Shown here piece by piece: positions 3,433 to 46,513 of a DNA stretch of 64,000 nucleotides. A program made the position numbers and the translations under genes. The notes beneath the pieces were generated by a model. The model was not told the DNA's origin. It worked only from the letters and a program-made list of their open reading frames with translations, and did not search any database. Within the stretch, counting starts at the first letter, position 1. Each line of letters opens with the position of its first letter. Source of the DNA: Planococcus lenghuensis (GTDB lineage Bacteria; Bacillota; Bacilli; Bacillales_A; Planococcaceae); the NCBI RefSeq assembly GCF_001999905.1, contig NZ_CP019640.1, forward strand, positions 1,840,001 through 1,904,000, written 5' to 3'.

Positions 3433-3780
3433 ATGAATGTGGAATTGACGCGATTCAAGGTGAAACAAGGAAAAACGGCACAAGTGGATGAATGGATGGA
3501 GTTCCTGAGAGAAAATATGGACGCTGTTCTGACGACGCTTGAAGGGGAGAAGATGTATGTGGAGACAATTTTCCGGGAAGAATTAAATGGCTCCGAGTAC
3601 TTGTACTGGTATTCAGTCCAAGGAGAAGCTGGCCAAGAAGTAGAGAATTCCGAACACTGGATTGACAAACGGCATCTGGCGTATTGGCATGACTGCATTG
3701 ACAAGACGTTCGCTCCTGTTGATCTGAGGACAGAGGCGGTCATGATTCCGGACAAAATAAGGAGTCAAATGAAATCCTGA
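3433..3780 (+). CDS. DUF6176-like conserved protein
   Basis: Small soluble protein of 115 residues without signal peptide or membrane segment. It matches my memory of the DUF6176 family of Bacillales: start MNVELTRFKVKQGK, middle KMYVETIFREELNG, and YLYWYSVQGE followed by a conserved HW...H pattern. The function of the family is not known to me. The frame runs open further upstream, but AAGGGAGG at 3417-3424 supports the ATG at 3433. It probably has its own promoter, because a terminator lies just upstream. Confidence 0.7.
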   Translation: MNVELTRFKVKQGKTAQVDEWMEFLRENMDAVLTTLEGEKMYVETIFREELNGSEYLYWYSVQGEAGQEVENSEHWIDKRHLAYWHDCIDKTFAPVDLRTEAVMIPDKIRSQMKS

Positions 3781-3848
3781 ATAAAATCTTGAATAAAATC
3801 TGATTTGTGCAGAAAGAAATAGCTGGTTTTCAGGAGGAGGGGTGCAAA

Positions 3849-31137: not shown

Positions 31138-31488
31138 TTAAGAACCGGCAATCAGCACGCCGAATATACCGGCAACAAACAGTAACGGCAGTCCGGCGAG
31201 GGCCCACTTTCCTAAAGCAGACAACCGTTGGATGAGTGCCTTCACGAAAATGAGAGACAAAAAAGCGAGCGCCCACCCCGGAAACCGCTTTTGCAGAAGC
31301 AAATAAGAAACAAAACTGATGGCCATGAAAACCGGAAAATAAGCTAAGTGAATCAATAATCCATTCAGCTCAAACAGCGAAAAGCCGTCGAAGAACGGAA
31401 GAAATCCCAACACGTGGTATGCTGCATATACAAATGATCCCCCGATGACATGCTGCTCCAGCCGCCGCTGTTCTGCTATGATCTCCAT
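31138..31488 (-). CDS. Hypothetical membrane protein
   Basis: 116 residues, four hydrophobic segments, start MEIIAEQRRLEQHVIGG at ATG 31488 with AGGACGGGG upstream. I do not recognise it. It ends 25 bases before the small gene at 31112, so they probably form a two-gene unit. The 21-bp repeat array begins just upstream of its start. Confidence 0.6.
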   Translation of the reverse strand: MEIIAEQRRLEQHVIGGSFVYAAYHVLGFLPFFDGFSLFELNGLLIHLAYFPVFMAISFVSYLLLQKRFPGWALAFLSLIFVKALIQRLSALGKWALAGLPLLFVAGIFGVLIAGS

Positions 31489-31566: not shown

Positions 31567-31740
31567 TTTCGCAAATATTCGCAAATAAAGACACTGGTTT
31601 TGCAAGTAACCTAGGGCATTCCGCAAGTAAAAGTCGTTTCGCAAGTAGCATTCTCAAATTCACAAGTAAGTGACCCAAATCCGCAAGTAAACTCATCAGT
31701 TTCACAAGTAAATCCCCCAGCTTTGCAACTATCCGCAGGC
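31567..31740 (+). repeat. 21-bp-period direct repeat array, core GCAAGTAA
   Basis: CAAGTA (or CAAATA, CAACTA) cores start at 31582, 31603, 31624, 31642, 31663, 31684, 31705 and 31726: seven intervals, six of 21 bases and one of 18. Single half-period copies flank the array (CAAATA at 31572; CCGCAGG near 31734). The usual unit is TTYGCAAGTAA plus about 10 variable bases. On the reverse strand the unit encodes a heptad beginning LLA/LLV, but there is no convincing start or ribosome site for that frame. The array lies between a divergent membrane protein gene and the third ECF sigma operon. Confidence 0.85.
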
Positions 31741-31845
31741 AACCCACTAACATAGTTCGTGAAGCAGGCACGAAAGAATTTAGTTATCCCATAACGACCG
31801 AATAATGGAGTATCCGAAAAAATCCCTAAAAAATTACGAAAAACC

Positions 31846-31872
31846 TGTCACAAAATCGCATCTTCCGGTGTC
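31846..31872 (+). promoter_or_regulatory. Candidate ECF-type promoter of the sigma operon
   Basis: TGTCACA (31846-31852), a 16-base spacer, then TGTC (31869-31872). This matches the TGTCACA-N16-CGTC type of promoter read by some ECF sigma groups, and would make the operon autoregulated. It lies 37 bases before the sigma start. Confidence 0.55.
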
Positions 31873-31909
31873 CTATATCATGAGAGCTCTTGGAAGGGAG
31901 GAACTGACG

Positions 31910-32452
31910 ATGGAGGTGGAGGCAGATTCATCGACGCCTGCAAACAATCTGCTGGATGAAACGTTCCAGGACTTATTTAAACAGCATTATGCACCGGTCG
32001 TCCGAAAAGTGATGATTCTCGTGAAGGAACAATCCATCGCGGAAGACATCGCCCAAGAGGTCTTTATGAAGCTGTATCATACCGATCGGTCGACGATCAA
32101 TAATCTATCCGGCTGGCTGACCAAAGTCGCCGTCAATACCGCTTATAATCACATCCGGACGGAACAGCGTCACCGGGCCCGGACCATGAAACAAGAAAGT
32201 TACGAACGCATCGAAACCGGATTAGTTGAAGATAAGTATATGGCACTCGAGGACATTCAGGACGTGCAGCAGATCCTGATGAAACTGCCGGAGCGGGATC
32301 GCGATATCCTCCTCATGAAGTTCTCCGGCTACAGTTATGAGGAAATCGCGAAAACGAAAGGCGTGGAAAAGACGTCCATCGGCGCGCTGCTCGTCCGGGC
32401 GAAAAACCGCTTCAAAAAAATCTATCTGGAAGAAAGGACCGAAACGGAATGA
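31910..32452 (+). CDS. ECF RNA polymerase sigma factor
   Basis: 180 residues with regions 2 and 4. Region 2 has SIAEDIAQEVFMKLYH and LSGWLTKVAVNTAYNHIRTE; region 4 has LPERDRDILLMKF and SYEEIAKTKGVEKTSIGALL. The frame is open 105 bases upstream, but AAGGGAGG at 31894-31901 selects the ATG at 31910. Its stop overlaps the start of the zinc-finger anti-sigma gene (ATGA). Together with the downstream ABC transporter genes it forms one operon, so it probably controls that transporter. Confidence 0.92.
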   Translation: MEVEADSSTPANNLLDETFQDLFKQHYAPVVRKVMILVKEQSIAEDIAQEVFMKLYHTDRSTINNLSGWLTKVAVNTAYNHIRTEQRHRARTMKQESYERIETGLVEDKYMALEDIQDVQQILMKLPERDRDILLMKFSGYSYEEIAKTKGVEKTSIGALLVRAKNRFKKIYLEERTETE

Positions 32453-46184: not shown

Positions 46185-46513
46185 TGGGTTATAAAGCGAA
46201 GCAGGGCGATATCATTTTTGCGGATTTGAACCCCCGGACAGGTTATGAGCAGGCGGGTAAACGCCCATGTCTGGTAGTCAGCAATAACTTCTACAATAAC
46301 TTGAGCAATATTGCCATTGTGGCCCCGATTACGAATACCGTCCGGGCATTTCCGCTGAACGTGCCGCTGACGGCGGACAACAAGACGACCGGCATGGTTC
46401 TTTGCCAGCATATCCGGGCAATCGACACCCAGGCCCGGAATGCTGAATTTAAAGAGACCGCAGCATCTGAAACGCTCGGCAAAGTGCTCGAGATTTTACC
46501 AAAACTGTTTTAA
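46184..46513 (+). CDS. MazF/PemK-type endoribonuclease toxin
   Basis: 109 residues. KQGDIIFADLNPRTGYEQAGKRP carries the conserved GD and G-x-EQ-x-G-x-RP of MazF, followed by VVSNNFYNN and AIVAPITN. The catalytic Arg and the later Thr are in place. It would cleave mRNA at a short motif when the antitoxin decays. A terminator-like hairpin follows. Confidence 0.9.
   Translation: MGYKAKQGDIIFADLNPRTGYEQAGKRPCLVVSNNFYNNLSNIAIVAPITNTVRAFPLNVPLTADNKTTGMVLCQHIRAIDTQARNAEFKETAASETLGKVLEILPKLF

Follow-up and report, generated by a model that had tools for sequence, protein, structure and literature searches.

An intergenic region of Planococcus lenghuensis, located between a membrane-like protein gene and an ECF sigma factor operon, carries ten 11-bp cores arranged mostly at 21-bp steps. 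We read this array as one member of a dispersed class of iteron-like elements, whose putative reader would be a cooperative, sequence-specific DNA-binding protein; the reading is tentative, and we give it slightly less than an even chance. Arrays of this kind have conserved cores, free spacers, a period that does not depend on the core sequence, and a spacing close to integral helical turns; these features together favour cooperative DNA-binding sites carried on dispersed elements. Judged from sequence, the arrays point to an undescribed class of putative DNA-protein binding array. In the literature covered (open-licence papers, most subscription papers being outside this coverage), no prior description of the core or of such arrays was found.

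The phased array of the window

The window is the whole 64,000-nucleotide stretch of P. lenghuensis DNA that was analysed. By scoring 11-mers against TTCGCAAGTAA, we identified ten TTCGCAAGTAA-like cores at 31568-31742, separated by steps of 10, 21, 21, 18, 21, 21, 21, 21 and 10 bp (Table 1). This recount agrees with the sequence-only reading, which had described steps of 21 bases, one step of 18 and half-steps at both ends. The longest phased chain in this intergenic region comprises 7 units; among 2000 dinucleotide shuffles of the region, a chain of 4 was obtained once and a longer one never. A scan of the non-coding DNA of the window for periods of 12-45 bp found no other phased array. On the array itself, TRF reported only a 10-bp repeat at 31568-31587, because the array spacers are unrelated in sequence. 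Elsewhere in the window, TRF reported 12-bp tandem repeats of 2.8 copies each at 3768-3801 and 46278-46310.

With 10.5 bp per turn, the 18-bp step corresponds arithmetically to a helix turn of about -103 degrees; therefore, the cores share one helix face only within each half of the array. The earlier statement that all cores face the same side of the DNA holds within each half and fails across the 18-bp step, where the faces differ by about 103 degrees.

Table 1. Features of the window array and its surroundings (window positions), with the match of each core to TTCGCAAGTAA
Feature	Position	Strand	Match to TTCGCAAGTAA	Remark
Left neighbour, 116-aa membrane-like protein	31138..31488	-		Divergent from array
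Whole phased array	31568..31742	+		10 recognisable cores
Core 1, TTCGCAAATAT	31568..31578	+	9/11	Half-step, 10 bp ahead of core 2
Core 2, TTCGCAAATAA	31578..31588	+	10/11	
Core 3, TTTGCAAGTAA	31599..31609	+	10/11	
Core 4, TCCGCAAGTAA	31620..31630	+	10/11	
Core 5, TTCGCAAGTAG	31638..31648	+	10/11	Follows 18-bp step
Core 6, TTCACAAGTAA	31659..31669	+	10/11	
Core 7, TCCGCAAGTAA	31680..31690	+	10/11	
Core 8, TTCACAAGTAA	31701..31711	+	10/11	
Core 9, TTTGCAACTAT	31722..31732	+	8/11	Degenerate, 21 bp past core 8
Core 10, TCCGCAGGCAA	31732..31742	+	8/11	Degenerate, half-step of 10 bp
Block conserved with congener	31832..31876	+		82% over 45 bp, about 90 bp beyond array; probable promoter
ECF sigma factor	31910..32452	+		Pfam domains Sigma70_r2 and Sigma70_r4_2

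Local context and the sigma operon

The protein of the left neighbour gene has no Pfam match. On the other side, the ECF sigma gene is followed at its 3′ end by a zf-HC2 anti-sigma-like gene and then by ABC transporter genes, all on the plus strand. The sigma ORF likely starts at 31910 instead of the listed 31805, because an ORF starting at 31805 would contain the conserved block at 31832-31876, which probably serves as the sigma operon promoter. In a congener (G001), a different gene with a terminator lies ahead of the sigma operon, and the array is absent, yet the promoter-like block is kept; the region is thus a synteny break with respect to this congener, and the sigma operon can do without the array. 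The array as a regulator of the sigma operon was therefore rejected, given this congener without an array and the location of other arrays at unrelated genes. The window array is among the few divergent cases and is probably an old, decaying member that was stranded in a divergent region by rearrangement.

Distribution across the chromosome and related genomes

The array surveys combined targeted pattern searches with selected stretches of genomes. On the 3.72-Mb contig, a two-unit pattern with at most 3 mismatches occurred at 69 places, against 16 for the reversed control. The search for further arrays that the sequence-only reading had suggested yielded about 12 more with the TTCGCAAGTAA core on this contig, of 3-16 units each, dispersed and located at diverse genes. 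In these arrays, cores of 11 bp are separated by spacers of 10 bp, or of 7 bp where the step is 18 bp, and the spacers are mostly unrelated to each other.

A strict three-unit pattern matched in Ureibacillus, Fictibacillus, Neobacillus, Psychrobacillus, Planococcus and Aquibacillus; among the steps shorter than 70 bp in these matches, 427 were of 21 bp and 42 of 18 bp. Related genera hold hundreds of arrays. Two-unit matches were found in 23 of 200 family genomes, ranging from 1 to 274, and some near relatives have none; in the class, a three-unit pattern with at most 2 mismatches matched 2 of 398 genomes. The family is taken as Planococcaceae because some loci of its genomes are identical to loci of Planococcus ruber and Ureibacillus acetophenoni. 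Matches in Treponema, a planctomycete, a gammaproteobacterium and Parapedobacter have other unit structures and were excluded from the context counts.

A phage origin was considered and rejected, since only two viral contigs matched, having one three-unit match in common. Very long arrays, of up to 59 units, were observed in Ureibacillus acetophenoni (L049, L077, L080 and L094), with a regular 102-bp higher order composed of four 21-bp steps and one 18-bp step.

Period and helical phasing

In 75 kb of family intergenic DNA, a core-free search found that chains reaching 4 or more units had periods of 20-22 bp, whereas the rest of the 12-45-bp range was almost empty. When a chain had to keep exactly the same period over 4 units or more, the combined set of 129 kb yielded 7 chains at 21 bp and 1 at 20 bp, with one stray chain each at 12 and 40 bp; 20 stretches of this set had been picked because they surround engB or pheT, two loci with arrays already suspected, and the 12 stretches not chosen for these genes contained two arrays in 54 kb. 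No 20-22-bp arrays were seen in 98 kb from other families of the class. In one genome of another family (G026), some intergenic repeats have steps of 41-42 bp and others have steps of 18 and 20 bp in alternation (L219:17300-17720 and L225:11620-12080); they may represent an analogous element.

In the GTTCGCGTACGAA arrays, steps of 21-22 and 30-31 bp alternate over 10 to 19 units, an alternation that fits two and three helical turns. The 18-bp step, which corresponds to 1.7 turns, is the second commonest in P. lenghuensis and Ureibacillus. Within the TTCGCAAGTAA family, 10- or 31-bp steps were found nowhere except at the ends of the window array. The sequence-only reading had proposed both helical phasing for cooperative binding and a decaying heptad-coding origin, and of the two, phasing is the better supported. 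In relatives, the period is almost always 20-22 bp even with unrelated cores; this stable period, the 21/30-31 alternation and the conservation of the cores speak for phasing, whereas the 18-bp steps speak against a strict form of it.

That the arrays are decayed heptad-coding sequence is scarcely credible. Although 21 and 18 are divisible by three, no frame can run through units of 19, 20, 22, 30 and 31 bp, and the open frame differs from array to array (LLA, YLR, TCE, SQV and FAS), so that reading-frame conservation did not emerge. In genome G097, 10 of 18 copies have one particular frame open, which would also be expected from an open consensus decaying neutrally, and variability among codon positions is only weakly uneven (0.17/0.14/0.21). 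Stop codons are fewer than in shuffled spacers, but in several frames at once, and therefore no single frame is picked out.

Core conservation and free spacers

The array cores are conserved and the spacers are free. When related arrays were compared in pairs, with cores defined in one member of each pair only, core differences against spacer differences were 0/36 and 11/38, 1/54 and 27/62, 1/54 and 15/62, 16/128 and 57/145, and 11/85 and 43/129. Some of the compared pairs may be paralogous copies instead of orthologues. The reverse comparison of the first pair gave 9/54 core against 23/61 spacer differences, with more core differences because one member has lost two units.

A functionless satellite, in which a 21-bp unit spreads by slippage and tandem duplication, would be expected to diverge equally in core and spacer, the opposite of what was found between related arrays. 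The higher-order duplications of 81 and 102 bp inside long arrays are in keeping with such a satellite. Slippage, however, would not scramble the spacer and spare the core, and it accounts neither for one core recurring at many unlinked loci nor for a single period with cores that are unrelated; we regard a satellite as very unlikely.

Genomic position and strand

Position statistics were based on 81 distinct arrays, with genes called by a simple ORF rule. The arrays avoid promoter regions and are concentrated downstream of genes, often after an intrinsic terminator: 28 sites are convergent versus 6 divergent, and the 220 bp upstream contain a sense terminator-like site in 20/72 cases, versus 3/72 downstream, with several arrays sitting past the terminator. 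At 29 of 34 tandem sites, the array points the same way as the genes (p=4e-5). The array strand agrees with the local GC skew in 54 of 65; where skew and upstream gene conflict, the array sides with the gene in 5 cases and with the skew in 6. The strand bias may come from replication equally well as from transcription. A comparison of array neighbourhoods showed no gene family that recurs meaningfully beside the arrays as a cognate gene, and no candidate protein was found.

The strand bias relative to the upstream gene and the position behind genes and terminators are also what would suit an RNA-level element, whose cores, in read-through or 3′UTR RNA, would bind an RNA-binding protein or a small RNA. 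We consider this improbable. The agreement with GC skew (54/65) means that the bias may equally be one of replication, several arrays lie beyond the terminator, and helix-like spacing (21; 30-31 bp) is not expected of RNA. Moreover, the window region has no Rfam match, and the sense strand shows no conserved structure, the consensus folds of two element families being nearly unstructured. RNAalifold gave a signal on the Fictibacillus reverse strand, which is taken to arise from short self-complementary spacer words.

Same sites with different core words

Arrays are present behind pheT in P. lenghuensis and Ureibacillus, at engB-hemA in P. lenghuensis and Planococcus, and behind the ROK glucokinase gene (glk) in P. 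lenghuensis and genome G174. At engB-hemA, the core is TTCGCAAGTAA in P. lenghuensis and TTCGGTAGTAA in the congener, and TCWACCTGGAA, GAGCGATAAA or GAATGGATGAAAA in other genera; downstream of pheT, the cores elsewhere are CACGTTGTAATT or GTTCGCGTACGAA. P. lenghuensis has 37 CGCAAGTAA pairs and 0 TCGGTAGTAA pairs, and the congener has 3 and 13, respectively. These shared sites may reflect conserved positions, or simply positions that arrays favour.

P. lenghuensis also has arrays with cores GATCATAAA, CTGAACGCGGATTAG, TGCTCTTTAAG and TTCCACTAGTTG, all at 20-22 bp. Near 3.006 Mb (L045:6240-6740), three adjoining 21-bp arrays were observed in one intergenic region; their cores, TGCTCTTTAAG, TTCGCAAGTAA and TTCCACTAGTTG, differ and are partly related, and the last two arrays are in register, with hybrid units. 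This trio is possibly a dialect shift under way.

Unit number, leaders and mobility

Among the Fictibacillus arrays listed, 18 of 20 consist of precisely six units preceded by the leader TTTTATGAAAATGATGTGT or a variant of it, and their spacers largely differ from locus to locus. Genome G097 has the core CACGTTGTAA, mostly in five units, and its own leader, unlike that of Fictibacillus; the spacers are also common to different loci, which therefore represent recent copies. In G097 (L238-L256), we observed a dispersed element of ~190 bp, whose conserved upstream part ends in TGTCGAGCGATGGC and is followed by five 21-bp units. In Fictibacillus (L073, L078 and L093), alternate spacers end in TGTCGA, giving TGTCGAA, a word resembling the Spo0A box, ahead of every second core.

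The strongest rival explanation is a purely mobile element, that is, a short interspersed element without host function, whose phased units would be recognition sites of a copying or inserting enzyme and whose place behind genes would reflect target choice or tolerance. Dispersed copies with a common leader and a near-fixed unit number in Fictibacillus and G097, the spacers common to loci in G097, and the patchy spread (23/200 family genomes, some with >190 pairs, and near relatives with none) argue for it. Nevertheless, cores are kept where spacers have diverged, which is unexpected of a dead mobile copy, and the same positions (pheT, engB-hemA and glk) are occupied across genera; in addition, terminal inverted repeats were not apparent in a non-exhaustive look at the G097 consensus. 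On balance, we judge a purely mobile element rather unlikely, although a serious contender.

Comparison with known repeat systems

The nearest known kinds are iterons, BIMEs, DUS dialects and bcr1. Plasmid iterons, the binding arrays of RepA/Rep proteins, are short direct repeats with a conserved core and a spacing of about two turns, to which protein binds cooperatively. The arrays described here are likewise direct repeats of a conserved core about two helical turns apart; their 20-22-bp peak and 21/30-31 alternation show the integral helical spacing of iterons, and 18-bp steps also occur. Unlike iterons, they are found in many chromosomal copies adjoining diverse ordinary genes, without an attached rep gene or origin and without a recurrent cognate gene, and their dialects differ between close species.

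The REP/BIME sequences of enterobacteria are interspersed, extragenic, located mostly 3′ of genes, present in dozens to hundreds of copies and lineage-specific, and BIMEs are composed of imperfect palindromes. Our arrays resemble them in being dispersed, extragenic, mostly 3′ of genes and lineage-specific; they differ in consisting of non-palindromic direct repeats of 21 bp with free spacers and a sense strand without a conserved fold. The bcr1 element of the Bacillus cereus group is a short, dispersed intergenic element formed by a single structured unit; the arrays are also short, dispersed intergenic elements of a Bacillales lineage, but are phased rows of short sites instead of one structured unit. 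The DNA uptake sequence (DUS) occurs singly or in inverted pairs and in far larger numbers than the arrays, which, unlike it, are tandem and phased. The arrays share with the DUS of Neisseriaceae a non-palindromic word of ~10 bp, one dialect per lineage and a location near terminators (PMC3630211).

Proposed mechanism and implications

In the proposed protein-binding array, a row of about 9-11-bp sites, two helical turns apart, would be read as double-stranded DNA by a putative sequence-specific protein whose binding along the helix is cooperative. We infer a protein as the reader, and protein and core would change jointly. At the 3′ ends of transcription units, its role may be insulation against read-through, an effect on local supercoiling, or nucleoid organisation. 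The main difficulties for the protein-array reading are the 18-bp steps and the presence of several cores in one genome; to have several unrelated cores read, a genome would have to encode more than one binding protein, or the reader would have to recognise structure instead of sequence.

A broader form of the proposal, which we put forward as doubtful, is that Planococcaceae and some Bacillaceae might possess a general, undescribed system, in which a fast-changing putative DNA-binding factor would change together with genome-wide, two-turn-phased arrays at the ends of transcription units, each lineage having its own core.

The combination of one dominant spacing with interchangeable words means that the geometry of a binding array would be separable from its sequence. 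Sites at which closely related species carry different words offer a natural experiment for finding the putative reader protein. If such a protein exists, it would be a fast-changing, sequence-specific chromosome-organising or boundary factor at Gram-positive gene ends.
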